The notes under the pieces: generated by a model
The model's input: the letters and a program-made list of their open reading frames with translations, nothing else
Told to the model about the DNA's origin: nothing
The model's database searches: none
Program-made: the position numbers and the translations under genes
Part shown: positions 737 through 36,124 of the stretch, piece by piece
How the letters are laid out: each line of letters begins with the position of its first letter
How positions within the stretch are numbered: position 1 is the first letter of the stretch
Origin: Sphingopyxis panaciterrulae
GTDB lineage: Bacteria; Pseudomonadota; Alphaproteobacteria; Sphingomonadales; Sphingomonadaceae
Assembly: GCF_014199295.1 (NCBI RefSeq)
Contig: NZ_JACIJH010000011.1
Location: 1 to 64,000 of the forward strand
DNA length: 64,000 nt
Direction: 5' to 3'

Positions 737-5452
<4,716 letters not shown>

Positions 5453-18731: not shown

Positions 18732-18906
18732 CCGCCACCTTCGGCGCCTTCAAAAATCTATCTTGCGCTGCGCGCGCCTCCGGTCGGGCTACGCCCGCCC
18801 TCCGCCGCACGCAGCGCAAGGCGATCCTCAACTAACCAACATCATATCCGAAAAGGGGGTCCCTCTTCGACGCCGATAGGGGGTCCCTTTTGAACGCCGT
18901 TTGACA
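18405..18906 (+). mobile_element. IS21-family remnant: istB 3' part plus right end
   Basis: The segment begins in the middle of istB and runs to the element end. Near the end are two multiple-terminal-repeat units (18855-18875 and 18879-18899, GGGGGTCCCT...ACGCCG) and a terminal TTGACA at 18901-18906. istA and the left end are absent, so this is a deletion derivative. It directly abuts the 3' end of an IS110 gene. Confidence 0.85.
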
Positions 18907-19982
18907 CACATGAACCCGGCGAGCTCGCGCGCGACGGCCGTGCAGACGACCGTTGTTCGCTTCCCCGTCGCGCTTAGCTTGCGATATCGCGCTGTCAGGC
19001 GCGACTGTGCTTTCCATGCGATCTCGCGCACCGCCGGCGACACGCGCTCATGGATATAGAGCTTCTTCACGCCGATTCTTGGCGGATGGCGGTACGTCCA
19101 TGCACTCTCGACAAGCATATGGCGAACCCGGCTGTTGCCGGCCTTGGTGATTGCGCCGCGGCGGACCGATGCGCCGGTCGATCGTTCACTCGGAACGAGG
19201 CCCAGATATCCCATGAGCTGTCGCGGGTTCTCAAACCGCGTGACGTCGCCCACCTCGGCCGCGAAGGTGGCCGCGACGATGAGATCGACACCGCGCAGCG
19301 CCCGAAGATTATGCACCAGCGGCTCGAGCGACCATCGCGGCAAGAACTCCTCGATCGCGGCTTCGATACGCTTGATCCGTTCGCTGGCCAACCGGAGCGC
19401 ATCGACCATCTCCTGCAGGGCGATCTGGTGAGCAGGATGCTCGAACCGCTGCTCCTGGAGCCATCGCATATAGCGCATCGTCCAGCGCGTTTTGCGCGGG
19501 AAAATCCGGCCGTGCCTCAGCATGAAGGAGGTGATGTGCTGCCGATGGACGCGCTGCGTCTCGACGGCGGCCAGGCGCGCGCGAACAAGATCGCGCATGG
19601 CTTCGTGGCTTTCGTCAGGCACCCACACCGCCGTCAGTTCGCCGGCCCGGAGCAACCGCGCGAGGCCGACCGCATCACGGCGGTTCGTCTTCACCTGGTC
19701 GCCGGGGCGTCTCGGAATGAGCGATGGCGCCACAACGATGCAATCATGGCCCATCGCCCGGATCAGACGGTAAAGCCCATAGCCCGTCGGCCCCGCTTCA
19801 TAGCAGAACGTCAATCGCTCATGCTTGGCCGCAATACGCTTCACGATGCGCCGCATCGACGCCTCGTCGGAATCGAACTCGCCCAAATATCGAATCTCGC
19901 CCTGCCGGCCAGCATCGGCAACGGCGATCGCGTTGCGCAGCTTGGCAACATCGATCCCGACGAAAACTTCACCCTCCACCAC
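18828..19982 (-). CDS. IS110-family transposase
   Basis: The product has the IS110 layout: an N-terminal RuvC-like DEDD domain (FVGIDVAKLRN, CYEAGPTGYGLY, KTNRRDAVGLARLL) and a C-terminal transposase_20 domain (LRALRGVDLIVAATFAAEVG, NPRQLMGYLGLVPSERSTG, GNSRVRHMLVESAW). The GTG at 19982 preceded by AGGAGA is the best start. A longer frame to 20108 has no family support. Its natural C-terminus seems lost: the last 20 or so residues are encoded by the IS21 terminal repeats, so the reading frame runs into IS21 DNA and stops at 18828. Activity is uncertain. Confidence 0.85.
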   Translation of the reverse strand: MVEGEVFVGIDVAKLRNAIAVADAGRQGEIRYLGEFDSDEASMRRIVKRIAAKHERLTFCYEAGPTGYGLYRLIRAMGHDCIVVAPSLIPRRPGDQVKTNRRDAVGLARLLRAGELTAVWVPDESHEAMRDLVRARLAAVETQRVHRQHITSFMLRHGRIFPRKTRWTMRYMRWLQEQRFEHPAHQIALQEMVDALRLASERIKRIEAAIEEFLPRWSLEPLVHNLRALRGVDLIVAATFAAEVGDVTRFENPRQLMGYLGLVPSERSTGASVRRGAITKAGNSRVRHMLVESAWTYRHPPRIGVKKLYIHERVSPAVREIAWKAQSRLTARYRKLSATGKRTTVVCTAVARELAGFMCVKRRSKGTPYRRRRGTPFSDMMLVS

Positions 19983-20094
19983 GGCCCGCTCTCCTGCGAT
20001 GAGGACAGGCCCGGCCCATCCGAGCGATCCTCGCCACAGCAGTATAAGCGTCGGGTCGCCATCAGTCGCGCAGCGGTCATACGGTCTTACCCTT

Positions 20095-20690
20095 GTCTTC
20101 AAGTGCATCCGACAGATCCCGTTCGCGGCAGGCGAGGATATCGCGCGCTAGCAGCGGGATCAGCTGGTCGCGATGGACAATCCGCCCCGGGTTGGTTGCG
20201 AACCGATCGTCGATATGAAACGAAAGCCCGAGAACCTGGTTCAACTTGGCGAACTGTAAGTCATTGCCGACAGCGATGATCAGTTCCCGTCCGCGCAGGC
20301 AAAGGCCTGATAGGGAACGAGGTTGGCGTGTCCATTGCCGATGCGTGGGGGACGTTGTCGCTGGTCATCCAGTTAAGCGCCTGGCCGGCGATCACCGCAA
20401 CCTGCGTGTTGAGCAGCACCATGTCGATATGGGCACCCTGACCCGTGACGTCCCGGCGCCGCAAGGCTCGCGACCGCCGATAGGTTCCGGTGAACAGGTC
20501 AGGATAGGCCACGCCGCATTTCTGCGGCGGGCCATCGGGCTCTCCGGTCATCGACATTATGCCGTCCATCCTCTGGATGATGAAATTATATCCGGCGCGG
20601 TGGGCGTAAGGGCCGGTTTGACCGAAACCGGTGATCATCCGAGGATTGACCGCAGCCAGGCTTATGATCGAGCCCATATTTCACGAGTCC
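20095..20690 (-). pseudogene. CaiB/BaiF (family III) CoA-transferase remnant
   Basis: The minus strand encodes recognisable family III CoA-transferase segments: NPRMITGFGQTGPYAHRAGY, GIMSMTGEPDGPPQKCGVAY and GQGAHIDMVLLNTQVAVIAG. A small deletion is likely near FTGTYRRSRALRRRDV. A frameshift near 20340 moves the continuation (RELIIAVGNDLQFAKLNQVL, then GRIVHRDQLIPLLARDIL) into another frame. The N-terminal third is absent and the 3' part ends near the IS110 element. It is a non-functional scrap of a fatty-acyl or aromatic-acid metabolism gene. Confidence 0.8.
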
Positions 20691-21817: not shown

Positions 21818-24805
21818 CTATAGGCTCATGCCAAGGCTGCGACCCTTTTCGATGCCGACGCTGCTCGCGAGGTCCTGCGCAAGCTGACGGCCCGTCTCGA
21901 TCTGGATGCCAAGCTCGGGCTTGCGGGCGCGCAGGACAGACTCCATCTGCGCATCGCGTTCGAGGCTCTTCGCCATGCCCGCCATCTGCTCGGACATCTT
22001 GCGGGCGCCGCGATGATCGCCGTCTTGCTGGAGGGCATCGCGTTGCTGGCCAAGCTCGCGCCACCCTTCGACAAAGCGGTCGGCGCGTTTGGCGGGATCG
22101 GTGCGAACGTCGGCCTCGTGCTGCATCGCGCGGAGCGCGCCATTGACACGGCCGCGCGACGCTTCGCCGACCAGGCCGGGATCGCGGGCGTAGGCTTCCT
22201 CCATATCCCTCGCGGAGTGCCAGCCGGCCCTGTCCAGCGCGTCGCGGGCCTTGTCGAGTTCGGCGCGCTGGTGGGGCAGGATGGGCAGGTCCCTGTCCTG
22301 CATCTTCCAGATATCGGAGATGGCGCGAGCATGGCGCTCGACGGCAAATCGCCGGACATGCTCGCGATCGGCCTGCGCTGCCTTCGCCGGGTCGGCGGCG
22401 GGCGTCGAGGGACGAAAGTCGGCGAAGATGCCGCGTTGCCGTTCGGGCGCGGCCGGTGCGCCGCGATCCTGCCCGCCGATGGAAAGGCGCAGGCCGTCGA
22501 ACATGCTGCGGGCCTTCTCGGGCGCTTGACGGACAATCTCGGCGACGCGTTCGCCGAACGCGATGCCGCGTCGCTCGGCGAACGAGCGAGCGGGATCGGC
22601 GCGCGCATAATCGCTCGCCATGTCCTTGGCACGCTCACGCGACAGGGTGCGCACGAGCTTGCCCTGATCCTTGAAGTCGTCGCGGCCATAGTGAAGCTGC
22701 ACGCCGTCACGATGCCGCGACAGCGCGACATAGGCGCCGTGGCGGTCCATGCCCGGCGTTGCCAGCACATGCGTCCGATCGACGGTCATGCCCTGCGCCT
22801 TGTGGATCGTCGCGGCGTAGCCATGATCGAGGTCGCGATAGTCTTTGGTGTCGAATGCGACCGAGCGCCCGTCGTCGGTGCGCACCGCCATGTTCCGCTC
22901 GCTGACACGTTCGATCGTCGCGAGCGTGCCGTTCTTCACTTCCAGGCTCCGCTCGTTGCGCAGGAACATGACGCGGTCGCCGCTAGCGAACATCCGATCA
23001 CCGCGCTCGACCTTGAGCGCGACATCATCACCAAGATCGCCGCTTGCCCGCATTGCGTCGCGCGCCGCCTCGTTGAGCTCGCGCACCTCGGCATTAGTGT
23101 GGGTGAGGATGATCCGGCTCGCATCTGGACTCGCCTGTCGATCGCGATCCCAACGATCGATCAGCTCGCCGCGTGCAGCCGCGCGCGTGTCGGTGGCATG
23201 CACCATATCCCTTGTCGCATAGCCGTCGATCGCGGCGCCGGTTCGCCCCGTCGCCAGATGCCGAGTCGCCTCTTGCTGCCAGCTCTCATGCTGGCGGCGA
23301 ACCTCGGTGATCTCGACGCCGCCATGTCGTTCGTGGATCGCGCGGAACGCCGCGCCCGCTTCGATCGCCTGCAACTGCTGCGGATCGCCGACCAGCACGA
23401 CCTTGGCGCCGGCATCGGCGGCGTGCGACATGACGCGTTCCATCTGCCTCGTGCCAACCATGCCCGCCTCGTCGATGACGAGCACGTCGCGTGATGTGAG
23501 CAGATCGCGCCCCTGCGCCCAGCCATGTTCGAGGCTGGCGATCGTGCGCGACGCGATGCCCGAACCATTCTCCAGGCCTTCAGCGGCGATGCCCGACAGC
23601 GCCGCGCCGCGCACCTCCAGCCCGGCGTGTTCCCAAGCCTCGCGCGCCACGCCGAGCATCGCGCTCTTGCCGGTCCCGGCATAGCCGACGACGATGCCAA
23701 GCCCGCGCCCGTCTGTCACACGCTCGAACGCGGCGCGCTGCTCACCCGAAAGCTCCAGACCGCGCTCCGCTGCGCGCGCCAGCGCGCCCTTCCGGTTGCT
23801 GTTCAACACACGATGCCGCTCGCGCTGTGCCATGACCTCGGCTGCGCGCTGCAACCGCTGCTCGGTCTCGATCATGTCGTGGCTGGTGAACCGGTCTTCG
23901 CCGCGTCCGTCCTGGCCGAGTTCGATCAGATCGGGCGACGATCGCACCGCGCCGAGCACGGCATCGAACTGTTCGCGCCCATCGCTGTGGCGATGCGCGA
24001 ACATGGCAAGGTCGCGGTTCGCGAAGGTGGCTTGCCCGTGGGTGATCGCATCGAGCGCGACGCGCGGCTCCGCAATGATCCGCTCGCCGTTGCGGCGCGC
24101 GATCTCGCGATGTTGCTCAATGCGCTCGGCCTGAAGCCCGCGGCCCTCCATGCGCGATGCGGCGGGGCCGATCTTGTCCTGCGGCTCGAGGCCGATGCCC
24201 TGCGCCTCCAGCGACCGATGATCGATGCGCGCTTCGATATCGAGTTCGGCGAGGCGGGTGTTGACATGATCAGCCCAACGCTCGCGCCACTGTTCGACAA
24301 GCTCCGTGCGATTCCAGTCGCGAACCTTGGCGCCAAACCCCGCTTCGCCGTCCTTGTCGGTGACGATCTCGCGCATCGTCAGCATGACATGGGCGTGTGG
24401 CTTCGCCAGCCCATCGGCACCGATGTCCCAATGGACATTGAGGTCGGCAATCATGCCCAGATCCACAAACTCGGATTGCACAAAGTCGCGGGCGAGTTCG
24501 ATGCCCTGCGCCTGGTTCATCTCGCGCGGGATCGCGAACTCGACCTCGCGGACAAGCTGGGCATCCTTCCGCTTCTCGGTTGCCTCGACCGCGTTCCAGA
24601 GCCTTTCGCGGGCGGCGAATTCCTCCGGCGCATTCTCGGGCAAGAGCACCTCGCTGTGCACAACGCCCGGCTTGTTGGTGAAGTCATGGTCGCGGTCGAG
24701 CCGTTCATCGTGCAGGCGCTCGCCAGCGCGATAGGCGGCCGCCGCGACCGCGCTGCGCCCCGCGCCGCGACCGATGACTTTGACCGAGAGATGGAAAATC
24801 GCCAT
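21818..24805 (-). CDS. traA: Ti-type conjugative transfer relaxase TraA
   Basis: The 995-residue protein joins a MobA/MobL relaxase domain (residues 1-220, with the metal-binding KPHAHVMLTMR, His137 and His139) to a TraI/TrwC-like helicase (Walker A GYAGTGKS at 374-381, Walker B VLVIDEAGMV at 441-450, later GYAATIHKAQGMT and VALSRHRD). It nicks the transfer origin and unwinds the strand for conjugation. ATG at 24805 gives the canonical start MAIFHLSVKVIGRG. A 37-codon upstream extension has no support. traC lies divergently at 24979, so the 173-bp gap probably holds the transfer origin. No type IV secretion genes are visible, so transfer would need a helper. Confidence 0.92.
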   Translation of the reverse strand: MAIFHLSVKVIGRGAGRSAVAAAAYRAGERLHDERLDRDHDFTNKPGVVHSEVLLPENAPEEFAARERLWNAVEATEKRKDAQLVREVEFAIPREMNQAQGIELARDFVQSEFVDLGMIADLNVHWDIGADGLAKPHAHVMLTMREIVTDKDGEAGFGAKVRDWNRTELVEQWRERWADHVNTRLAELDIEARIDHRSLEAQGIGLEPQDKIGPAASRMEGRGLQAERIEQHREIARRNGERIIAEPRVALDAITHGQATFANRDLAMFAHRHSDGREQFDAVLGAVRSSPDLIELGQDGRGEDRFTSHDMIETEQRLQRAAEVMAQRERHRVLNSNRKGALARAAERGLELSGEQRAAFERVTDGRGLGIVVGYAGTGKSAMLGVAREAWEHAGLEVRGAALSGIAAEGLENGSGIASRTIASLEHGWAQGRDLLTSRDVLVIDEAGMVGTRQMERVMSHAADAGAKVVLVGDPQQLQAIEAGAAFRAIHERHGGVEITEVRRQHESWQQEATRHLATGRTGAAIDGYATRDMVHATDTRAAARGELIDRWDRDRQASPDASRIILTHTNAEVRELNEAARDAMRASGDLGDDVALKVERGDRMFASGDRVMFLRNERSLEVKNGTLATIERVSERNMAVRTDDGRSVAFDTKDYRDLDHGYAATIHKAQGMTVDRTHVLATPGMDRHGAYVALSRHRDGVQLHYGRDDFKDQGKLVRTLSRERAKDMASDYARADPARSFAERRGIAFGERVAEIVRQAPEKARSMFDGLRLSIGGQDRGAPAAPERQRGIFADFRPSTPAADPAKAAQADREHVRRFAVERHARAISDIWKMQDRDLPILPHQRAELDKARDALDRAGWHSARDMEEAYARDPGLVGEASRGRVNGALRAMQHEADVRTDPAKRADRFVEGWRELGQQRDALQQDGDHRGARKMSEQMAGMAKSLERDAQMESVLRARKPELGIQIETGRQLAQDLASSVGIEKGRSLGMSL

Positions 24806-24978
24806 TGCGGCAATCCATCTACACTTCAAAGCGGACGTCGGCACGACGTATAAGCGCGCCCTTCTCGAATAAATTCTCGTGCGGGACTGGGTTGTTCCAT
24901 GCTGTCCCGGCAACACTACTGCATCACCGACGCCGCTCTTCTATCATGGCCGCATTGCCACAGAATGGAGACTTTGCG
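24806..24978. promoter_or_regulatory. traA-traC divergent intergenic region, candidate oriT
   Basis: In Ti-type systems the transfer origin lies between traA and the divergent traCD genes. This 173-bp gap is the only such region here and must also hold both promoters. It contains A/T-richer sequence near 24850-24880. I cannot identify a nick site by eye. The assignment is from synteny. Confidence 0.4.
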
Positions 24979-25284
24979 ATGCGCAAACCCCGCGATATCG
25001 ATTCGGAATTGAAGGCGCTCGAAGCCAAAGCGAAGACCCTCAAGGAACGCCGCGTTCGCCACCTCGGCGAACTCGTCATTGCGACCGGTGCCGATGCGCT
25101 TGATGCCGACATGCTCGCCGGCGCATTGCTTGGCGCCGTCGCGGTCAAGGATACAAGCGTGGAGGAGGGCTGGCGCAAGGCAGGCGCGCGCTTCTTTCAG
25201 CGCGGCGCAAGCAAAGCTGCGGCGCGATCTGATCGCGGTGCAGCGAATGACACAACGACTGACGGCCATGCGGCATCGGCTTGA
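24979..25284 (+). CDS. traC: Conjugal transfer protein TraC-like
   Basis: The 101-residue product is a small helical protein with an N-terminal coiled coil (DIDSELKALEAKAKTLKERR) and the segment GWRKAGARFFQR, like the roughly 98-residue TraC proteins encoded divergently from traA in Ti-type systems. It probably belongs to the DNA-processing complex at oriT. GGAG at 24967-24970 precedes the ATG at 24979. It overlaps traD. Confidence 0.72.
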   Translation: MRKPRDIDSELKALEAKAKTLKERRVRHLGELVIATGADALDADMLAGALLGAVAVKDTSVEEGWRKAGARFFQRGASKAAARSDRGAANDTTTDGHAASA

Positions 25285-25528
25285 AGCGGTGAAAGCACGG
25301 ACCGGCATGCGCGAATGGCAAGTGAAGCGGCGCGAACGCACGCGGCAACTCATTGAGCTGGGCGGTCTCGTCGTCAAAGCCGAGCTCGTCGATCTCACCG
25401 ACGACGATCGCGCGATGCTCTATGGCGCCTTCCTGTGGATGGCGAACAAGCTCAGGAGCGGCGAGCGCGCCCATGCCGCAGCGCTGTGGAAGCGGCGCGG
25501 GAAGCGCGCGTTCGACGCCGAGAGCTGA
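25247..25528 (+). CDS. traD: Conjugal transfer protein TraD-like
   Basis: The conserved part is QVKRRERTRQLIELGGLVVK followed by LTDDDRAMLYGAFLW, as in the small TraD proteins (about 70 residues) of Ti-type plasmids. The start is uncertain: ATGs at 25247, 25268 and 25307 are all in frame. The first overlaps traC by 38 bp. It is an accessory of the relaxosome by family association. Confidence 0.7.
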   Translation: MTQRLTAMRHRLEAVKARTGMREWQVKRRERTRQLIELGGLVVKAELVDLTDDDRAMLYGAFLWMANKLRSGERAHAAALWKRRGKRAFDAES

Positions 25529-25531
25529 CGT

Positions 25532-25945
25532 CTATTTCTTGCGCGGTCGTCCGCCGCGCCCGTTCTTGCCGAGCCCGATCTCCTTCGCGAGCGCGCGGCG
25601 CTTCTCGGCATAGTTGGGGGCGACCATCGGATAGTCCGGCGACAGATTCCACTTCGCACGATAATCTTCGGGCGTCATGTCATGGTCCGTCATCAGGTGG
25701 CGCCGAAGTGTTTTGAACTTCTTGCCGTCTTCGAGGCAGATGATGTAGTCGGGCTTCGTCGACGCGCGGAGCGATACCGCCGGTTCCTGTTTGGCTTCGG
25801 GCTCGTCGGCCTCCCCAAGTCCGGCGAGCGCGTCGTGCACGGTCTTGATGACCAGCGGCAGATCGGACACGGCCACATTATTGTTGCTGACGTGCGCCGC
25901 TACAATGTCGGCGGTGAGCGTGACGAGCGCTTCGGCATCTTGCAT
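25532..25945 (-). CDS. MucR/Ros-family zinc-finger regulator
   Basis: The 137-residue product has a helical N-terminal half and the MucR/Ros zinc-finger region (CLEDGKKFKTLRRHLMTDHD, then MTPEDYRAKWNL), with a basic C-terminal tail (GKNGRGGRPRKK). Such proteins bind AT-rich sites and silence horizontally acquired or conjugation genes in alphaproteobacteria. It sits beside traCD and faces them tail to tail, and may regulate transfer of this element. Confidence 0.9.
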   Translation of the reverse strand: MQDAEALVTLTADIVAAHVSNNNVAVSDLPLVIKTVHDALAGLGEADEPEAKQEPAVSLRASTKPDYIICLEDGKKFKTLRRHLMTDHDMTPEDYRAKWNLSPDYPMVAPNYAEKRRALAKEIGLGKNGRGGRPRKK

Positions 25946-26021
25946 TTTTTGTTCTCCTTGGACCCGGCGGCATGACCCTTACTATTCTAAGCTACGGACA
26001 TGCCCGTATCCGGACGCCACT

Positions 26022-26528
26022 TCAAGTAAGGCGCGCAGTGACTCTGCGGCATCGCGCCAGCGCGCGCCCGATATGATTTTCGACCGCCTTGCAGCTCACC
26101 CCGAGTTCGTCGGCAATGTCCCGGTAGGCCATGCCGCGCAGCCGGTGCATCAGGAAGATGCGCCGGGTCTTTCGCGACAAGGGGCGGAGCGCTCGCCAAT
26201 AAGCGCGCCGCAGTTCCTTTCCCTCGAACCTTCGCTCCTGTTCGGGCGGCGTGACGCCATCGCGTTCCTCGTCGAACGGGTAGAGGACTCCCTGCCGCCT
26301 TTGTTGGCGTAACCGGTTGAGCCATATGTTGCGCGCGATCTTCGCCAGATAGGCCCGGGGATATTCGAGCGTCGCGAACCTGCCGCTGCCATAAAGGCGC
26401 ATGAACGCTTCCTGCGTCAGATCGGCCGCCTCGTCGCGCCCGACCTTCCGCCGGAAAAAGCCATGCACCCGCGCTCGTTCGGCCCGATAGAAGGCGTCGA
26501 AGGCGACCGCCGAAGCCGGCGCGGTCAC
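26022..26528 (-). CDS. ECF/FecI-type RNA polymerase sigma factor
   Basis: The 168-residue protein has sigma region 2 (DAFYRAERARVHGFFRRKVG, EAADLTQEAFMRLYG, PRAYLAKIARNIWLNRLRQQ) and region 4 (LSRKTRRIFLMHRLRGMAYR, DIADELGVSCKAVENHIGRA). It fits the FecI-like subgroup. No FecR-type anti-sigma gene follows. Instead its GTG start (26528) overlaps by GTGA the stop of a nucleotidyltransferase-like gene, an unusual partner. The regulon cannot be deduced. Confidence 0.88.
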   Translation of the reverse strand: MTAPASAVAFDAFYRAERARVHGFFRRKVGRDEAADLTQEAFMRLYGSGRFATLEYPRAYLAKIARNIWLNRLRQQRRQGVLYPFDEERDGVTPPEQERRFEGKELRRAYWRALRPLSRKTRRIFLMHRLRGMAYRDIADELGVSCKAVENHIGRALARCRRVTARLT

Positions 26529-27019
26529 GGCCGCACCCCTTTACGCTCGCGCGGCAAGAGCGGCGCATCGCGCGAAGCGCGATAGAGGGTGATGCCTGCC
26601 TCGATACGGTCGAGGATGAAGGTGTCGCGCTCGGCCTTGGCGACGCGGATGTCGGCTCTGGAGTAAAACTCGAGGCCAACCGCGCAGCGATTGCCGAGCT
26701 CGTCGTCGATCACGTCACGGGCGCGGGTCCAGCATTCGGCTTCCTTGAACAGCGGATGATTGACGACGATCCAGAATTCGTAATCGGAAAAGTTGATCGT
26801 ATCATCGTCTTCGTACCAACTCGTCCGCGCATAGGGGCCGATCAGGATGATGCGGCGAATCTCGCCCGGCTCGGGCGCCTGCACCGCATCGGGATCGAAG
26901 CAGGCGCGCAAGATGCGCGTGATCCGCTCGACCTCCTGCTGCTTGCGGCGGATCAGATGGCCGACGCGCGCCATCACGACTTCGCGCGCGTAAACGTCGT
27001 TCGCTTTGGGGGTATGCAT
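26525..27019 (-). CDS. Degenerate nucleotidyltransferase-like protein
   Basis: The 164-residue product has the shape of a minimal nucleotidyltransferase: RRIILIGPYARTSWYEDDDT and FSDYEFWIVV. The active-site Ser of the usual GSYAR motif is Pro62, and the DxD pair is D79-x-E81, so catalysis is doubtful. An N-terminal helix (ARVGHLIRRKQQEVERITRI) resembles the start of the nucleotidyltransferase-HEPN protein encoded at 27238-28158. The ATG at 27019 is chosen. An upstream start would add 16 residues. It is coupled to the sigma-factor gene. Confidence 0.68.
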   Translation of the reverse strand: MHTPKANDVYAREVVMARVGHLIRRKQQEVERITRILRACFDPDAVQAPEPGEIRRIILIGPYARTSWYEDDDTINFSDYEFWIVVNHPLFKEAECWTRARDVIDDELGNRCAVGLEFYSRADIRVAKAERDTFILDRIEAGITLYRASRDAPLLPRERKGVRP

Positions 27020-27237
27020 GTTGAGCTCGCACAGCGGCGGTCCGCGCGTCAGCGCGCGAATGTGCAAGCGGTGTCCGCTGTGTGCCGATCGATCGGCTTA
27101 CAGCAACTGCCCGACCCTCGGCCGGACCTGCATGATGCTGGCAGGACGTTCCTCGGGATGGCCGCCAGTCATTCCATCCCGTGGGCGGGATTATGCCAGA
27201 AGCGGGGAGGCCCGGCAAGCCGGGCGGCCGCCCGCGT

Positions 27238-28158
27238 CTATTCGCGCACGGCCTTTTCGAGCTCCGTGATCCTGTCGGTGCAGACCTGATGGACGACGCG
27301 GCCGAGTTCCTCGACACGCTCGCCGAGCCAGGTCAGCTCTTCTTCGCTGATCCGGTAGTGCTTGGAATAGCGGGCCTTGGTGTAAGCCTCTTTCAACTTC
27401 TGGAACATTGCGCGTTCGCGGCGATTGGCTTCCGGCCAGATGCCGTAAAGGCGGCGGTCCAGCCCCTCGGCGAGCGAACGCAGGAATGCGATGTTGTGGT
27501 TGTACGGCGTGTAATAGGTCAGCGTCAGCAGTAGGCAGGCATAAAGACGCTCGGTGGTCTGGTGCATATCGAAGGCAGCGTCCTTCAAATACCCCTTGTC
27601 GATTCCAAACCGGGCAAATTCATACCGCTTCATCGCAGACGGGAATCCGTCCTCAAAATATTCTCTCGCGGTCGCCAAAGCTTGCTCCGAAGTCTTCGGT
27701 TTCGGCGTCGCCAATTCACGATCATCAGCCTCGTAAAGCGCGATGCCATCCTTCGCGACCTCCATGAAGAAGACCCGGCCATGCGCGAGCCCATCGTTGA
27801 CCTCGTGGAGCGAGTGGACGATGAAATTGACCGGCGTGCGCAGCGTCTTTTCGATCGTATACGCCCGGATCAGCCGCTCCTCGGCCTTGGCCCAATAGGC
27901 GGCGCGATCAGTCAGTTCCTTCTGGCTGACGATGACGAGAATATCGTAATCGGATTTATACTGGTTGGCAGACGCCCGCGCGTCGACCCAATCATCCCTC
28001 GCGTAGCTGCCGAACAGGATGATCTTCAATATGCGGGCGCCCTTGCGGCGCCCGGTCGCATTCTCGGTCGCGGCACCGAACTCGTCGAAGATGATTTCGA
28101 CGATGCGTTCGAGCTCGCGCTGCTTGGCGGCTGGCAGATGATCGACGTCTGTTCGCAT
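27238..28158 (-). CDS. Nucleotidyltransferase-HEPN domain fusion protein
   Basis: The 306-residue protein has an N-terminal nucleotidyltransferase (ILFGSYARDDW with G50-S51, and SDYDILVIV with D70 and D72) and a C-terminal helical HEPN domain (about 155-306, including MHQTTERLYACLLLTLTYY and NHNIAFLRSLAE). In two-gene MNT-HEPN systems the transferase AMPylates and silences the HEPN RNase. Here both are in one chain. It is frequent on alphaproteobacterial mobile elements, with unknown target. It is divergent from the STAND-nuclease gene. Confidence 0.85.
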   Translation of the reverse strand: MRTDVDHLPAAKQRELERIVEIIFDEFGAATENATGRRKGARILKIILFGSYARDDWVDARASANQYKSDYDILVIVSQKELTDRAAYWAKAEERLIRAYTIEKTLRTPVNFIVHSLHEVNDGLAHGRVFFMEVAKDGIALYEADDRELATPKPKTSEQALATAREYFEDGFPSAMKRYEFARFGIDKGYLKDAAFDMHQTTERLYACLLLTLTYYTPYNHNIAFLRSLAEGLDRRLYGIWPEANRRERAMFQKLKEAYTKARYSKHYRISEEELTWLGERVEELGRVVHQVCTDRITELEKAVRE

Positions 28159-28436
28159 GCGTGCAGGAATCTTCGGGCAATGCCCGTCACTTGGCAAGAA
28201 CAGATTGCCCGGCGCTCTGCGGGGGGCGTCGATAACCAGTCCATTCCGAGGATCGCCAGCCTATCAGCGCACTTCGGAACTGGCCGACTAGAGACTGTCG
28301 GCTTGTAAGGCAGTTCAGGTGAATGAGGACGTACTGCGGAGCCGAACATCCGCCTCGTCGACGGCATGGGCCTTAATCAGCATTTTCGGGTTTAGGTTGA
28401 GGTTTAATTCCTTGTAGGGGACGCTATCTTCGAACG

Positions 28437-31400
28437 ATGCCGATCCCGCACTTTCTGCCTCGCGCACTAACCGCTCGGATCGATGGCTCGGAGCGGTTGA
28501 TCCATCACACCGACCTTCTGGCTCTCCCGGCGAACCTCGTCATTCTTGGTGAAGCGGGAATGGGGAAGTCCCGCCTCCTTGAAGAATTGCAGGGCGAGAG
28601 GGTCAAGCTCGTCACCGCGCAGCGTCTCATCAACCATCACGATCCGGTCAAGCTTGTCGCAGGCGTAGATTGTCTTTTGGTCGATGCGCTCGACGAAGCC
28701 TCAGCCTTCAGGGAGGGCGAGGCAGTTAGCGGCGCGCTCGCGAAGATCGAGCAATCCGGTGTTGGTCGCTTCATTCTGAGTTGCCGATCCGAAGATTGGC
28801 AGGCGGCTACCACTGTTTCCCTGATCAGGGAAACGTTCGGCGCGGCGCCCTTGGAATTACAGTTGCAGCCCTTCGACGAAAGCCAGATCCGCGGATTTCT
28901 TACCGGCGAACTCGGATCCGAGGGAGCGGCAGCCGTCTTTGCCGATTACAAGCGCTTGGGCTTCAGCGAATGGCTCGGCAATCCGCAAACGCTGATCATG
29001 CTTGCTGAAGTGGTTAGGGCAGGCCAGTCGCCCAAGACGACCGGCGACCTGTTCTCGCGTTATGTCGAGCTGAACTTGCCCGAAGGAAATCAGGCCCGGC
29101 GCGAGCGCGGCGCCGAAGTTTCCATGGACGCTCGGCTGGATGTTCTTGGCGCGGCCTTCGCCGCGCTGATCCTGTCGGGCAAGGCGGCGTTGGCGAAGGC
29201 CGCTGCGGCTCCGAACGATGGAGACCTTCGCTTGTCGGAACTGGAACCGCTTCCGGGAAATACGGACTGGAATCTCGTCTCGGGCAATCGCCTAATCCGG
29301 GCTTATCCCGGCGATCCCAATCGGCTCTTATACGCCCACCGCCGTATCGGCGAATGGCTTGCTGCAAGATGGCTCGCACGTCGGGCAAAATCAGATCAGG
29401 CGCGCGAACGGCTTCTGGCAGCGCTCACCGTTCATCATGTCGTTCCTGCCAGCTTGCGTGGGCTTTTCGCGTGGTTGGCGCAGTATCGGGACTTCTCGCT
29501 CTCGGTCATTAAGACCGATCCGATGGCGGTGGTCGAATATGGTGATGCCGATGCGCTTCGCGATGATGAGGCGGAAGCGCTCTTCCGCGCGCTGGAAGAG
29601 CTTGCGAAGGCAGATCCCTATTTCGCGGGGTGGGGAGATTTTCGCGCCAAGGCCCTCGTTCGCGGACATATGCGCGAGCATTCCATTGATGCCGTGCTCG
29701 ACCAAAACCGAAACGAACGGCTGCGCCTCTTGCTGGCATCTCAGTTCAAGGGGGAACAACTCCCGGAAGATGTCGTGTCTCAGCTGCGCACTGCGGTGCT
29801 AGATGAGGACGCCTTCTACCCATTGCGGGAGGAGCTTTCCAAGGCTGTCATAGGAAATGTGGACGCAGAAGATATTCGGGCTCTGGTGGAAGAGCTTCGT
29901 CGGCAAGCGACGAATGACTCAACGAGGCTCGCTTCGAGCCTTATGCTCGAAGCTGGTCTTGACCTGTTCGATGACGAGCAGATCGTGCAGACGATTATGG
30001 CCGATTGTGGCAATGCGCTTTGCGCGGTTCCCCAAGAGGGGGAAGATCGCATGTCTGCGAAAACCTGGAGCTATCGGCGGGACGTGCCCGACGCTCGTCT
30101 GATCTCATTCCTCGACTGCTTCGCTGATTATGCGGACGCGCTTCTGCCGGAATATCGCAGTATCGAATCAGCCGACGTTATCGGGCTGGGCGATGCGCTC
30201 GTCGCACGGCATTTGATGGTTGGTCCAGTTGATCCCGTGCGGCTGATCAGATGGTTGGAGGCATTCGGCGGCCGGGACAGCTATGTTGCGAGCGACGAGA
30301 AGACGATCGCTCAATTTCTGCGCGAGAATGACGAGGTCCGGCGCGCCATCCAGATTCACAAACTGGGGCAGATCAAGACGCCGAAGGAGTTTTTCGAGGC
30401 CAACTATGCAATGGCCGACGCAAAGCACGACCTCGCATTTACCGATGGTGATCTCGCTGCGTTTCTCGAGAAGCAGGATGCGAGCTTCCCATGGGAAGCC
30501 GCAGTGCGATCGATCCGTCACTCCGAAACCGAGGGTGTCGAGACTCGTGCTGCAGCAAGACGCTTTTCCGGTAGCGATGACGAATATCACGCGCTGCTGG
30601 AATCCTTGCTCAACCCCGGGAAGCACCCTTGGGAAGTCGAGCAGGAAAAGAAGCGATCCGAGCGGGCGTCCGAGCGCGAGGTGCGCTGGGCCAGTTTCCG
30701 GGAGGGCGTAGCCAAGGAACGCAAGCAGGTCGAGCAGGCGCGCTACGGTGTGATCCAGCAGGTCGCGAACGTATACTTTGCGCGATACTCCGATCTTGAA
30801 AGTCTCGAAGGTGCGGAGGCGCGCCTGATTGCTTTGTGCGGCGAGGACATGCTTCCGTCGATCCGGATAGGTCTAGAAACCTATCTCGGTATCGCTCCGC
30901 TCGAACCGAGCGCTGCCGATGCGGCCGCGAGCTATGCCGAGAACCGGATGTGGAGCGCGCGCTATATTCTGCTGGCAGGCCTTGCAGAGCGGTTTCGTAC
31001 GACAGGCGCACTGGGCGATCTGACACGCGACCAGTTGGTCGCCGCTCAGCTCCATTCCGCGAATTTTGCGCTCCAGTCCGACGAATGGTCCGATCTTCGA
31101 AAGGCCATTTGGGATCGCATCGTTTCCGACAAGGGAGCCTTCGAAGAATATGCCCGCCTCATGGTCGAACCATCGTTCGCCAAGGTCAGCGAGTTCACCA
31201 CGGGTCTTTATGAGATTTTGCAGGAAGGGCGCGCCGCGCATCCCCATCTCGTCGATAGTCTGGTCGCGGAATGGCTCCACCGTTTTCCCGATATGCACTT
31301 CCGTTCCGAGGCCGAGCTCATGGACGTGCTCCTCCGAAAAGGAGATTGGGCTATTCTCGCTCCGCTGATCGAGCAACGGCTTGCAATGAAGGAATTGCAC

Positions 31401-32414
31401 GAGGAACGGCTGCACAATTGGCAGGCCGCCGCGCTGATCACAAATTTTGAAACCATGGCGCCAGCGCTTGCGACAGTGGCTGCGAGCCAGCCGGGGCTTT
31501 TCTGGGCGGTGCGATCGCGGATGGGCGCGCGGCGTCCCTATGACGATACGTTCGAGGCGATGTCGCTGGAACTGACGGCTTGGTTGATCGAGCATTTCCG
31601 GAAGCGCTTCCCGCTGGTGCATCGCCCCTCGGGCGTAACGATTGGCGAGAGCAATCCGTGGGACGCAACGGAAGCGCTCTCCCGAATGATCGACCGGCTT
31701 GGCACCGATCTTTCCGGGCGCGGGGCGGATTTGCTCGAGGCGCTCGCGGGGGTCGAGGATGGCTACCGTGATCGCGTGCTTGCTGTGCTCGCCGAAAACC
31801 GCCGGCAACGGGCCGAGCAGGCGCGTTCCACGCTTTCCGTGCAAGCGCTGGCAGATATTTTGACCTCGGGACCACCGCACAACCTGCGCGACCTCCAGGT
31901 TCGGGTTCTACAGCTGATCGAACTCGTCGAGGCACAGATAAAGAATAATCCCACGGACACTTGGGTTACCTTCTTTCGCGACGACAAAAAAACTCCGCAC
32001 AGCGAGGAGCAATGCCGCGACAGGATCATCGAAATCCTCCAGCAGCATGAAGACCAGATCGAATTCAGCCCCGAAAAGCACCTCGGCAATGATCGGGAAG
32101 GCGACATCGCCTGCGTCATCGCTGGGCTGCATTTACCGATCGAGGTCAAGGGGCAGTGGCACAGCGAGCTTTGGCGCGCGGCGGACGATCAACTTTTGGC
32201 GCAGCAGGCAGCCGACCATAAGGCCGACGGATATGGAATTTTGCTGGTTCTTTGGTTCGGCAACCGCGGCAAGACGCTCACAGGTGCTCCACAAGGGTCC
32301 GGCATCTCAAAGCCCGCGACGCCTCGCGAGCTTGAGGAGGCGCTCACAAGCTGCAGTAAGGCCGCGCGCGATGGGAATGTCGTCGTGAAGGTCATCGATC
32401 TGTCGCGTGGCTGA
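28437..32414 (+). CDS. Large STAND/NACHT-like NTPase with C-terminal PD-(D/E)XK nuclease
   Basis: The 1325-residue protein starts with a P-loop NTPase: Walker A GEAGMGKS (38-45), Walker B CLLVDALDEA (79-88), and a sensor-like GRFILSCRSEDW. A helical region of about 900 residues follows, the usual place of a sensor or repeat array in STAND proteins. The C-terminal 120 residues are a restriction-nuclease-like fold with GD (D1223), twelve residues, then IEVKGQ (E1236, K1238), a complete D-ExK site. This fits an effector fused to a recognition NTPase, as in Avs-type anti-phage proteins, but I do not recognise it as a named type. It overlaps the next gene by 8 bp and sits as cargo on a mobilizable element. 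Defence function is inference. Confidence 0.78.
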   Translation: MPIPHFLPRALTARIDGSERLIHHTDLLALPANLVILGEAGMGKSRLLEELQGERVKLVTAQRLINHHDPVKLVAGVDCLLVDALDEASAFREGEAVSGALAKIEQSGVGRFILSCRSEDWQAATTVSLIRETFGAAPLELQLQPFDESQIRGFLTGELGSEGAAAVFADYKRLGFSEWLGNPQTLIMLAEVVRAGQSPKTTGDLFSRYVELNLPEGNQARRERGAEVSMDARLDVLGAAFAALILSGKAALAKAAAAPNDGDLRLSELEPLPGNTDWNLVSGNRLIRAYPGDPNRLLYAHRRIGEWLAARWLARRAKSDQARERLLAALTVHHVVPASLRGLFAWLAQYRDFSLSVIKTDPMAVVEYGDADALRDDEAEALFRALEELAKADPYFAGWGDFRAKALVRGHMREHSIDAVLDQNRNERLRLLLASQFKGEQLPEDVVSQLRTAVLDEDAFYPLREELSKAVIGNVDAEDIRALVEELRRQATNDSTRLASSLMLEAGLDLFDDEQIVQTIMADCGNALCAVPQEGEDRMSAKTWSYRRDVPDARLISFLDCFADYADALLPEYRSIESADVIGLGDALVARHLMVGPVDPVRLIRWLEAFGGRDSYVASDEKTIAQFLRENDEVRRAIQIHKLGQIKTPKEFFEANYAMADAKHDLAFTDGDLAAFLEKQDASFPWEAAVRSIRHSETEGVETRAAARRFSGSDDEYHALLESLLNPGKHPWEVEQEKKRSERASEREVRWASFREGVAKERKQVEQARYGVIQQVANVYFARYSDLESLEGAEARLIALCGEDMLPSIRIGLETYLGIAPLEPSAADAAASYAENRMWSARYILLAGLAERFRTTGALGDLTRDQLVAAQLHSANFALQSDEWSDLRKAIWDRIVSDKGAFEEYARLMVEPSFAKVSEFTTGLYEILQEGRAAHPHLVDSLVAEWLHRFPDMHFRSEAELMDVLLRKGDWAILAPLIEQRLAMKELHEERLHNWQAAALITNFETMAPALATVAASQPGLFWAVRSRMGARRPYDDTFEAMSLELTAWLIEHFRKRFPLVHRPSGVTIGESNPWDATEALSRMIDRLGTDLSGRGADLLEALAGVEDGYRDRVLAVLAENRRQRAEQARSTLSVQALADILTSGPPHNLRDLQVRVLQLIELVEAQIKNNPTDTWVTFFRDDKKTPHSEEQCRDRIIEILQQHEDQIEFSPEKHLGNDREGDIACVIAGLHLPIEVKGQWHSELWRAADDQLLAQQAADHKADGYGILLVLWFGNRGKTLTGAPQGSGISKPATPRELEEALTSCSKAARDGNVVVKVIDLSRG

Positions 32415-33249
32415 CGGCGGCAAAGGTCGTAATCGCGCCGCTCCCGAGAGAGTAGAGGCATGGGAATGGGTGCCGCCTCTGCCCGTCCCCGATCTCACGA
32501 AATCGGCTGCTGCCGAGGCAGAACCGGAAGCCCTGTTGGCTTCCTTCGATCTGAATGTACATTGGCTGCGCGGCGGTTTTCGGGCCAGCCTGTTCGCGCC
32601 AACCGATCAGGTTAGCCAAGCTTACCTGGATGATTTGATCGCGACCGACCTCGTCATCGTTCCGGAGATGACCCGGCGCGGCGTTGCCATTGATGCAGGC
32701 AAACTGCTTCGCATTTTCGCGCGCCACAACGGACACAATCTCGATACGCTGCAAAGGAGTCTCGGTTATGATACCCAGTCCTTCAACGATCTCGTCGATC
32801 ATTTTTGTGCGGCCGGGCTGATCTTTCGCGTTCCCTGTCTGCCCGACGAGGGTCGGCCGGACATCTACTATTTCTGCGATACCGGAGTGCTGCATCGCCT
32901 GTTCAATCCCAAGTGGCAGCAGATCGGAAAAGGCCGCAAATATTTTGCCAGAAGTTGGGAAGGGTTCGTAGTCCGGACGATCTGCCAGCGCTACGGATTG
33001 GAAGCGGAGGTGTTCGTCTGGCGGGAGGCCGATCTAGACGAGATAGATCTGGTGCTCAGGTGGCCAAATGGTGAGTGCTGGGCGATCGAGATCGGTATTG
33101 GGGAAAACAAGAGGCCGTCCAAGGGTTATAAGGGCGGGGTCAGGAAACTCGCGGCGACCGAATTCACCATCATCCATCGAGGAGCCATAGATTGGGTCGA
33201 TGGCTACGAACGGATGACGCTTGAAGAGCTTTTGACCATCCGGCCCTAG
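32407..33249 (+). CDS. DUF4143-type protein lacking the AAA ATPase domain
   Basis: The 280-residue protein matches only the C-terminal two-thirds of AAA_14/DUF4143 ATPases: WLRGGF (53-58), a winged-helix segment (about 94-145, LLRIFARHNGHNLDTLQRSL), YYFCDTGVLHRLF, and a nuclease-like fold (SWEGFVVR, DEIDLVLRWPNGECWAIEIG). The P-loop domain that normally precedes is absent. The putative active site keeps D214 and E228, but the Lys expected two residues later is Gly230, so cleavage is doubtful. The GTG at 32407 overlaps the STAND-nuclease gene by 8 bp, so the two products are probably made in fixed ratio and may act together. Confidence 0.75.
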   Translation: MADGGKGRNRAAPERVEAWEWVPPLPVPDLTKSAAAEAEPEALLASFDLNVHWLRGGFRASLFAPTDQVSQAYLDDLIATDLVIVPEMTRRGVAIDAGKLLRIFARHNGHNLDTLQRSLGYDTQSFNDLVDHFCAAGLIFRVPCLPDEGRPDIYYFCDTGVLHRLFNPKWQQIGKGRKYFARSWEGFVVRTICQRYGLEAEVFVWREADLDEIDLVLRWPNGECWAIEIGIGENKRPSKGYKGGVRKLAATEFTIIHRGAIDWVDGYERMTLEELLTIRP

Positions 33250-34489: not shown

Positions 34490-36124
34490 ATGATCCGCGC
34501 CGCGCTCTATGCCCGCTATTCCTCCGACCAGCAGAATGCCGCGTCGATCGCCGACCAGCAGCGGCTCTGCCGCGAGCGCGCGGAGCGCGAAGGGTGGCAG
34601 ATCGTCGCGAGCTATGCCGATGCCGCCATCTCGGGCGACAGCATGATCCTGCGGCCGGACGTCCAGAAGCTGCTCGCCGATGCGCAGGGCGGCAAGTTCG
34701 ACATCGTGGTCGCCGAAGCCCTCGACCGTGTGTCGCGCGATCAGGCCGATATTGCGACCTTGTACAAACATCTCCAGTTCGCACGGGTGCCGCTGATCAC
34801 GCTCGCCGAAGGCGAAATCTCTGAGCTGCATGTCGGGCTCAAGGGCACGATGAACGCATTGTTCCTCAAAGACCTCGCCAAGAAAACGCATCGCGGCCTG
34901 CGCGGGCGGGTCGAGAAGGGCTTCTCCGCCGGCGCGGTCGGCTATGGCTACCGCATGGTCCGGCGCCTCAACAGCGAAGGAGAGCTTGTGCGCGGCGAGC
35001 GCGAGGTCGATCCCACGCAAGCGCTTATCGTCGAGCGCATCTTCCGAGAATTTTCCGCTGGCAAAAGCCCCATCGCCATCGCACGCGACCTCAACGTCGA
35101 GGGCATTGCGGGGCCGTCGGGAAAGCCGTGGCGCGACACGAGCATCCGGGGCACCCCGCGCCGGGGGGTCGGTGTTCTGAACAATGAGCTCTACGTCGGC
35201 GTCCGCGTCTGGAACCACAAACATTATGTGAAAGATCCGACCACCGGCAGGCAGGTCACCCGGCTCAACCCCGAATCCGAGTGGGTACGAAAGGCGGTGC
35301 CCGAACTGCGCATCGTCAGCGACGAGCTATGGGACGCGGCCAAGCGCCAACAGGAAGCGCTTGCCGCGCGGAACAAGGGCATCAAGGCAGCGGCGCAGGC
35401 GCGGGCGCTGCATGGCAAGCGGCGTCCAGCCTATCTGCTCTCGGGCCTGCTCGAATGCGGTGCGTGCGGCAGTACCTTCGCCATCGTCGTCAGTGACCGC
35501 TATGGCTGCGTCGGCCATTATCGCAGCCGCACCTGCTCCAACAGCCGGACGATCCGGCGCGAGGAACTGGAGCGTCGGGCGCTCGCGGGCATCGTCGACC
35601 GGCTGGTGTCGGCTGACAAGATCGACGCGGCCGTCGCCGCCTATGCGAACCATATCAACCGCGAGAATCGCGAGCGTCGTATCCAAGCCGATGCCGACAG
35701 CCGTGCCCTTGCGAAGATCGACAAGGCTATCGCGGGCATCATGGCGGCGATCGAGGACGGGCTTTATCAGCCCTCCATGAAAACGCGCATGGCTGAACTC
35801 GAACGCGAGAAAGCCGAAATCACCGCGCGGCTGGCCGAGGCGCCCGCTGGCATCCCCGATGTCCATCCCGGTGTAGCCGAGATTTACAAGCGCAAGGTCG
35901 CGAGGCTCACCGAAACGCTCCACGACCCGCAGGCGCGGCTCGATGCGTCAGCCGACATCCGCTCGCTCGTCGGCAAGATCGTGCTGCATGCGGGTGAGAC
36001 GCGCGGCGAGGTTCATGCCACCCTGCATGGCTCGCTCATGGGCATTCTCGACTTCGTGAATGACAACGCGCAACCGGGCACCGACCGAGTTATAACAAAG
36101 GTGTGCCCGGGTTCGCGGGAATGA
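34490..36124 (+). CDS. Large serine recombinase (integrase of the element)
   Basis: The 544-residue protein has the resolvase catalytic domain (ALYARYSSDQQ with the catalytic Ser at 11 or 12, ISGDSMILRPDVQKLL, EALDRVSRDQADIATLYKHL), the recombinase domain (about 170-290, FSAGAVGYGYRM, IVERIFREFSAGKSP), and a zinc-ribbon with LLECGACGSTF followed by further Cys residues, then a coiled-coil tail. Such enzymes integrate elements between attP and attB without host factors. The ATG at 34490 follows AAAGGAAG. It is the last gene before core chromosome and defines the right end of the element. Confidence 0.92.
   Translation: MIRAALYARYSSDQQNAASIADQQRLCRERAEREGWQIVASYADAAISGDSMILRPDVQKLLADAQGGKFDIVVAEALDRVSRDQADIATLYKHLQFARVPLITLAEGEISELHVGLKGTMNALFLKDLAKKTHRGLRGRVEKGFSAGAVGYGYRMVRRLNSEGELVRGEREVDPTQALIVERIFREFSAGKSPIAIARDLNVEGIAGPSGKPWRDTSIRGTPRRGVGVLNNELYVGVRVWNHKHYVKDPTTGRQVTRLNPESEWVRKAVPELRIVSDELWDAAKRQQEALAARNKGIKAAAQARALHGKRRPAYLLSGLLECGACGSTFAIVVSDRYGCVGHYRSRTCSNSRTIRREELERRALAGIVDRLVSADKIDAAVAAYANHINRENRERRIQADADSRALAKIDKAIAGIMAAIEDGLYQPSMKTRMAELEREKAEITARLAEAPAGIPDVHPGVAEIYKRKVARLTETLHDPQARLDASADIRSLVGKIVLHAGETRGEVHATLHGSLMGILDFVNDNAQPGTDRVITKVCPGSRE

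Follow-up and report, generated by a model that had tools for sequence, protein, structure and literature searches.

The ECF sigma factor gene of Sphingopyxis panaciterrulae described here and the overlapping gene of a nucleotidyltransferase-like protein (NT) belong to a larger cassette, which comprises an MNT–HEPN fusion gene, a promoter, a leader RNA, a pseudo-nucleotidyltransferase gene and the sigma gene, in this order. The cassette is located on the minus strand of the window, i.e., the whole stretch of 64,000 nucleotides that was analysed. The cassette as such, its conservation, the structure of its leader, the fixed loss of motifs in NT and the swaps of partners emerge from the comparison of sequences. 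The reading that we tentatively favour, at somewhat less than even chances, is that NT is a dead partner of the MNT fold which binds and tunes the co-made sigma factor, with the leader acting as a gate and with integrated mobilisable elements carrying the cassette. It is favoured because of the 4-bp coupling of the two genes, the fixed motif loss, and the sharing of the NT slot with another protein, termed X. The proposal of the preliminary description, an anti-sigma or binding partner, is thereby partly supported; the leader RNA, the MNT–HEPN gene, the region-4-only and protein-X variants and the mobilisation context go beyond that description.

In the window, the NT gene (26525..27019, minus strand; 164 aa, GPYAR ... 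FSDYEFW, MNT fold predicted) is followed by the sigma gene (26022..26528, minus strand; 168 aa, GTG start), and the two share the bases GTGA (26525..26528, minus strand, read from the sequence), in which the NT stop codon TGA overlaps the sigma start codon GTG. The coupling named in the preliminary description is, thus, present, and the co-occurrence survey proposed there found the pair to be conserved. In a set of 57 loci—the window and 56 loci from a scan of genome contigs—an ATGA or GTGA overlap between the NT stop and the start of the sigma gene is found in 50 (the frame of L054 is just 89 aa long); hence, conserved co-encoding with a sigma gene, as looked for in an anti-sigma factor, is observed. 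A chance overlap of the two genes was considered and is ruled out by this retention. The loci are distributed over eight named genera (Sphingopyxis, Sphingomonas, Sphingobium, Sphingosinicella, Blastomonas, Novosphingobium, Pelagerythrobacter and Altererythrobacter), with further loci in metagenome-derived records that carry a name at the order, class or phylum level only. Judged by these comparisons, the pair is no accident of the S. panaciterrulae genome.

The other seven of the 57 loci differ in kind. In L080 and L082, a short partner begins 3 nt past the NT stop; in L084, the next gene encodes a 314-aa protein from the cluster of L040:6004, a protein with two region-4 stretches; and in L087, a short ORF of the sigma cluster comes after NT. 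The L085 locus is cut off by the end of its contig, and L090 and L091 are incomplete. A 65% identical NT in L017 has neither a leader nor an overlapping sigma gene, a sigma-like gene being present ~0.9 kb upstream; this case argues against NT and sigma being strictly tied to each other. Among 298 family genomes, 11 contain an NT of at least 65% identity. At E<=1e-18, NT turns up in 23 of 60 genomes from the genus and in one of 385 class genomes, namely its own, the class set listing just four other genomes of the same family. The S. panaciterrulae genome itself contains a second copy of MNT-HEPN, leader and NT (locus L002, 1498..1695, on contig C20), whose NT match stops after residue 52; the letters beyond resemble, by eye, the end of an IS110-type ORF at window positions 18828–20108.

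In NT, G61-P62-Y-A-R stands in place of the GS motif and D79-Y-E81 in place of D-x-D, so that Pro for the motif Ser and D-x-E for D-x-D, as described earlier, can be read directly from the sequence. Among 52 distinct NT proteins, each of at least 150 aa, position 62 is Pro in 51 (the exception is Thr in L060) and D79 and E81 are invariant (52/52), while the third acid position, 115, varies, being Asp in 36 and Gly in the window. Neither a breakdown of the pair nor a homologue with an intact site was, accordingly, encountered among the close homologues, and the GSX10DXD motif by which MntA-type antitoxins are tested is not present in NT. In MntA, the exchanges of GS to AT and of DXD to EXE each abolish modification, according to passages of PMC7641770; on the other hand, passages of PMC11646218 describe other NT folds that are active without GS or with fewer acids, e.g., with GR in Rel-type enzymes, and Tam41. 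Since such folds can be active, the loss of nucleotidyl transfer by NT is graded as likely. Of the earlier label “inactive-looking”, the motif degeneracy stands and is fixed, but within the NT superfamily D-x-E alone does not prove an enzyme dead.

NT was recognised by neither Pfam nor NCBIfam, the NCBIfam MntA model included. NT does match the MNT domains of MNT-HEPN-type frames at five places in its own genome (E 8.7e-6 to 2.2e-13), and alignment to MNT domains of MNT-HEPN proteins gives 26–32% identity. When its AlphaFold model (mean pLDDT 82.3) was compared using VIA-align, similarity was found to HI0073 (Z 8.4, rmsd 2.9, 102 aligned), AadA (Z 8.4) and the Legionella MNT 8xeo (Z 8.2, rmsd 3.1, 100 aligned). 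Foldseek with the NT model returned nothing at E<=0.001 (best E 0.017, MntA/HepT) and HMMER against the PDB a single weak match (9xbd, E 0.0091), whereby absence from such fold lists rules out no family. Because of the kinship to MNT domains and the VIA-align comparison taken together, NT is assigned the MNT fold, in agreement with the nucleotidyltransferase-like nature that had been ascribed to the partner. With its gene placed before sigma and no membrane segment recognisable by eye, NT is no plain replacement of FecR. In most sigma/anti-sigma pairs, the gene order differs from the NT-before-sigma order of the cassette.

The sigma protein of the window contains both region 4 (Sigma70_r4_2, PF08281, 2.5e-15) and region 2 (Sigma70_r2, PF04542, 1.3e-10). 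Its earlier designation as FecI-like is fair as far as an ECF sigma factor with these two regions is meant, but loose, since the FecI models score 62–64 bits at cut-offs of 185 and 260. A scan of nine proteins, namely the pair and seven of its neighbours, found neither FecR nor a TonB receptor. Region 4 was detected in all 46 sigma-like partners scanned and region 2 in 41; it is missing from the partners of L082, L019, L033 and L105, which were scanned singly, L080 being a near copy of L082. Because region 2 is missing, the region-4-only partner of L082 and L080 cannot, by its domain content, be a classical sigma factor. Some loci (L042, L062, L069 and L088) possess two tandem sigma genes, the second of which starts 4 nt before the first ends.

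Sigma is also the most divergent component of the cassette, with a mean identity over 41 sets of 0.55, compared with 0.77 for NT, 0.83 for MNT-HEPN and 0.82 for the RNA. In L039, NT is 91% identical to that of the window and sigma just 46%; because a tight partner should limit such swaps, this counts against a tight partnership. Over the same 41 sets, sigma and NT distances correlate beyond what MNT-HEPN and the RNA account for (partial r 0.30, Mantel p 0.0005). The partial r of sigma is, however, 0.33 with the non-coding RNA (0.14 with MNT-HEPN), so that this test is not specific to sigma and NT, because sigma tracks the leader RNA equally well, and was given little weight. Shared descent or block exchange may explain the correlation.

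A structured leader RNA (27017..27187, minus strand), which is conserved and covarying and ends with the NT start codon, precedes NT; it scores 183.4 bits with model R1, built from 48 leaders. Ahead of it is a promoter-like TTGCCG-N17-CATAAT (27189..27219, minus strand, assigned by eye) with a TGG before the −10, as in extended −10 elements, which is conserved across the 37 short-gap intergenic regions that were chosen for alignment. A known RNA family was ruled out for the leader, as no Rfam covariance model matched it at E up to 5 in a scan of window positions 25000–29000; one weak match lies elsewhere (25199–25343). R1 finds the leader in 14 of 397 family genomes and also detects the divergent copies L082, L032, L105 and L087 at 92 to 58 bits. 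By BLAST and R1, the leader was seen in 53 of the 57 loci, L084 having just a 37-nt end at the contig edge. A search of 36 loci of other MNT-HEPN genes found the leader absent, save for a weak partial match. That match (L151, 2991..3065, 22.4 bits), at the locus of a 62% identical MNT-HEPN gene, is perhaps a remote relative of the leader RNA.

In 52 distinct leader sequences, 99.2% of the cells are paired. Two-sided changes occur in 16 of 39 pairs (shuffled mean 3.9; 16 reached by none of 500 shuffles) and the covariation score is 0.179, versus at most 0.086 with a slid partner; given that the leader alignment was fitted to the model and that the shuffles ignore relatedness, these controls support the structure rather than prove it. 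The single-sequence fold of the window leader surpasses its shuffles only moderately (z −2.34, 4 of 200 shuffles as good). Because 246 of 2021 cells are G-U, the transcript strand is favoured as the bearer of the structure, with 99.2% standard pairs as against 87.3% on the other strand. A candidate pseudoknot (27162–27168 with 27138–27144) is almost invariant. The terminal stem P5 (27025..27069, minus strand), which encloses P6, is formed by 27064–27069 and 27025–27030 and pairs CUUGC with a purine stretch ahead of the NT start codon; its 3' arm, carrying GAG before the start, is where ribosomes presumably bind for NT translation. The corresponding stretch is AAGG in L082 and AGG in L105, with the pairing kept. 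Because the last stem covers the purine stretch in the window and in the divergent copies, translation of NT would be gated by the leader. Of 59 leaders, 24, including that of the window, have a frame from the first ATG that closes at codon 3; in 26 (e.g., L063, 4814..4988), this frame spans 16 codons of the MExLAAI...LPGIM type and closes at codon 17, and five have no such ATG. A leader peptide may, by this count, exist in one branch of the leaders; it is not taken as the main feature of the cassette, as the frame is not common to all leaders.

In L105 (= L161), a 219-aa protein, X (847..1503, minus strand), takes the place of NT after the leader (79.7 bits), and its gene overlaps that of a region-4 protein by GTGA. 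No similarity between X and NT was found by tblastn and no match of X in Pfam. X is present in nine of 298 genomes at ten places (L161–L170). It is encoded directly before a sigma or sigma4 gene in L161, L168 and L169, before an MNT-HEPN-like gene (32–35%) in L162, L164 and L170, and with a sigma-like stretch upstream in L167; in L163, L165 and L166, i.e., three of the ten places, the flanks examined gave no sigma or MNT-HEPN match. The leader accompanies X at L161 only. Judged by these few cases, there seems to be one partner slot before sigma that is filled by either NT or X.

Upstream of the leader, the MNT-HEPN fusion gene (27238..28158, minus strand) encodes 306 aa with GS...DYD intact. 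The protein model (pLDDT 89.9) matches the HEPN domain of 4nqf with Z 25.1 and the MNT 8xeo with Z 10.8, and the NCBIfam MntA model scores 23.8 bits at a cut-off of 60. HEPN domains fused to MNT are typically devoid of RNase residues, as stated in passages of PMC3710099. An MNT-HEPN gene in the same orientation precedes NT in 51 of 57 loci (incomplete in L055, L063 and L076); the spacing is usually ~219 nt, but 0.56 to 4.3 kb in 18 of them. Across 298 family genomes, 14 MNT-HEPN places reach at least 75% identity, and every one is within 8 kb of an NT or the leader; the next best has 66%. A conserved CTTGCC ... GAAGATTC element just upstream of the gene (28167..28198, minus strand) is a putative promoter, and, given its nearness to the gene start, the MNT-HEPN mRNA might be leaderless. 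Conserved elements are present upstream of MNT-HEPN and of TraA; none could be linked to sigma as a sigma-dependent promoter.

A relaxase gene accompanies the cassette in 31 of 57 loci, 20 of TraA type and 11 of TrwC type, with neither in 26, for at most 5 kb examined per side. In the window, TraA (MobA/MobL plus helicase; 21818..24805, minus strand; PF03389 8e-74 and AAA_30 1.6e-59, scanned as 21818–24916) and the conjugal transfer gene TraD, convergent with the cassette (25094..25528, plus strand; PF06412 3.2e-22, scanned as 25079–25528), enclose an oriT-like block (24835..24861, minus strand), whose 27 bases are identical in 20 of 20 aligned TraA upstream regions, some of these being near-identical; we take the block to resemble a nic site. 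A MucR/Ros-type regulator (25532..25945, minus strand; PF05443 2.4e-50) is near the cassette in a minority of 10 loci, and a large serine-recombinase-like ORF (34490..36124, plus strand, by eye) marks the border to housekeeping-like genes. A plasmid or phage origin was considered and rejected: a search of 72,556 plasmid records gave no match to the leader and, for NT, just matches below 60% identity (279 records), and NT has no match in 50,697 phage records. The absence of the leader from these plasmid records, together with the serine-recombinase-like gene, points to integrated elements as the vehicle of the cassette. Control of element transfer by the cassette is a reasonable guess from this context.

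Further genes of the window include one for an EruA-type NACHT antiphage protein, divergent to the cassette (28437..32414, plus strand; NF058535 1260.6 bits, cut-off 1000), and one for a DUF4143/PDC-S01-like protein (32407..33249, plus strand), which overlaps the EruA end and is possibly the second part of a defence unit with it. A long ORF (1176..2855, plus strand) begins as a Met/Pro/Leu/Thr-rich low-complexity repeat.

According to the favoured reading, a sigma70-type promoter would give rise to an mRNA with a folded leader of ~170 nt over the NT gene start. A signal that opens the leader would permit translation of NT and, via the 4-bp overlap, of sigma in step, whereupon the catalytically dead NT would bind sigma and set its activity as an anti-sigma factor or sigma adaptor. 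The MNT-HEPN enzyme would probably take part as well, either as source of the signal or as a modifier, and the targets of sigma would probably be transfer or element functions. The translational gating, the binding of NT to sigma, the loss of catalysis and the sigma targets are the parts of this scheme that we infer from sequence. The fast turnover of sigma, the region-4-only partners, the placing of NT before sigma, L017, and the three X places without a sigma match speak against an NT–sigma partnership.

The main rival, itself rather unlikely, would make NT a dead MNT-domain paralogue directed at the adjacent MNT-HEPN enzyme, whose HEPN domain it would bind and which it would inhibit or tune, sigma being just co-transcribed. 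NT is, indeed, akin to MNT-HEPN proteins in their MNT part, complexes of MNT with HEPN are known (PMC11586414), and the MNT-HEPN gene is not only upstream on the same strand in 51/57 loci but linked to the cassette as one MNT–HEPN subfamily, with 14 of 14 places of at least 75% identity within 8 kb of NT or the RNA. However, the overlap ties NT to sigma and not to MNT-HEPN, which is 0.56 to 4.3 kb off in 18 of 51 loci; L105 keeps MNT-HEPN and the RNA without NT; and L019 and L033 have NT and sigma4 with no close MNT-HEPN within the short flanks examined. An improbable alternative is that NT has kept enzyme activity at an altered site composed of D79, E81 and, in most proteins, D115: the invariance of the first two (52/52), Asp at position 115 in 36/52 and the function of other NT folds without GS or the full acid set (passages of PMC11646218) are set against Pro for the motif Ser in 51/52, the variability of position 115 (Gly in the window) and the inactivity of the EXE and AT variants of MntA (passages of PMC7641770).

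Passive linkage, whereby sigma and NT would be independent genes sharing an operon by chance at a variable site close to transfer genes, is quite improbable. Downstream neighbourhoods do vary widely, and sigma diverges fast, is doubled in some loci and tracks the RNA as well as NT; nonetheless, the same 4-bp overlap recurs in 50/57 loci of eight named genera and the metagenome-derived records, and the sigma4 partner is re-used with NT or X. Very improbable is a function of the conserved intergenic element as single-stranded DNA, i.e., as an entry promoter that lies in the leading region of the strand being transferred, rather than as RNA. With TraA-type relaxases, the cassette would be on the first-entering side of the oriT-like block, a placement for which we assume the nic polarity, and the incoming strand would be the template; yet the 246 G-U cells become A-C on that strand (99.2% versus 87.3% standard pairs), its DNA fold has a z of −1.59, and TrwC-type loci keep the element with similar scores. 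A wider version of the favoured reading, which we regard as unlikely, would have the leader RNA gate the joint translation of sigma (or the region-4-only protein) and a swappable partner, the dead NT or X, with MNT-HEPN as sensor or modifier, in control of element transfer or establishment; this would be a new kind of sigma control module of integrated mobile elements.

If the NT–sigma reading is true, an MNT-fold pseudoenzyme would join the proteins paired with ECF sigma factors, and a handle on transfer control by the integrated elements of sphingomonads would be gained. With the leader comes a structured RNA that Rfam lacks and whose genetic context is clear. Because an active-looking relative, MNT-HEPN, adjoins NT, the fixed motif loss provides a clean test of enzyme-to-regulator evolution. 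We know of no anti-defence role of the cassette. Among open-licence papers, none on the cassette was found, and none of the titles listed names it; the parts are of known kinds, and their combination and the leader RNA appear to be new within this searchable literature.

With leading-region genes of conjugative elements (PMC11541004), the cassette shares the nearness to an oriT-like block and, with TraA-type relaxases, a template strand that would enter first; it differs by occurring also beside TrwC-type relaxases. Like cis-regulatory leader RNAs that cover a ribosome-binding site, it has a conserved 5' leader with covarying stems, the last of which lies over the start region, but this leader is without an Rfam match. 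ECF sigma/anti-sigma pairs (FecI-FecR and others) are similar in that the sigma factor has regions 2 and 4 and its gene overlaps that of a conserved partner, whereas here this partner resembles MNT and precedes sigma, none of the nine proteins scanned is a FecR, and sigma is sometimes reduced to region 4. The HEPN/MNT (HepT/MntA, type VII) toxin-antitoxin systems are matched by the MNT fold of NT and of the N-terminal part of MNT-HEPN as well as by the HEPN fold of its C-terminal part; in contrast to them, MNT and HEPN are fused in the cassette, which adds an extra small NT without GS/DXD, a sigma gene and a structured leader.
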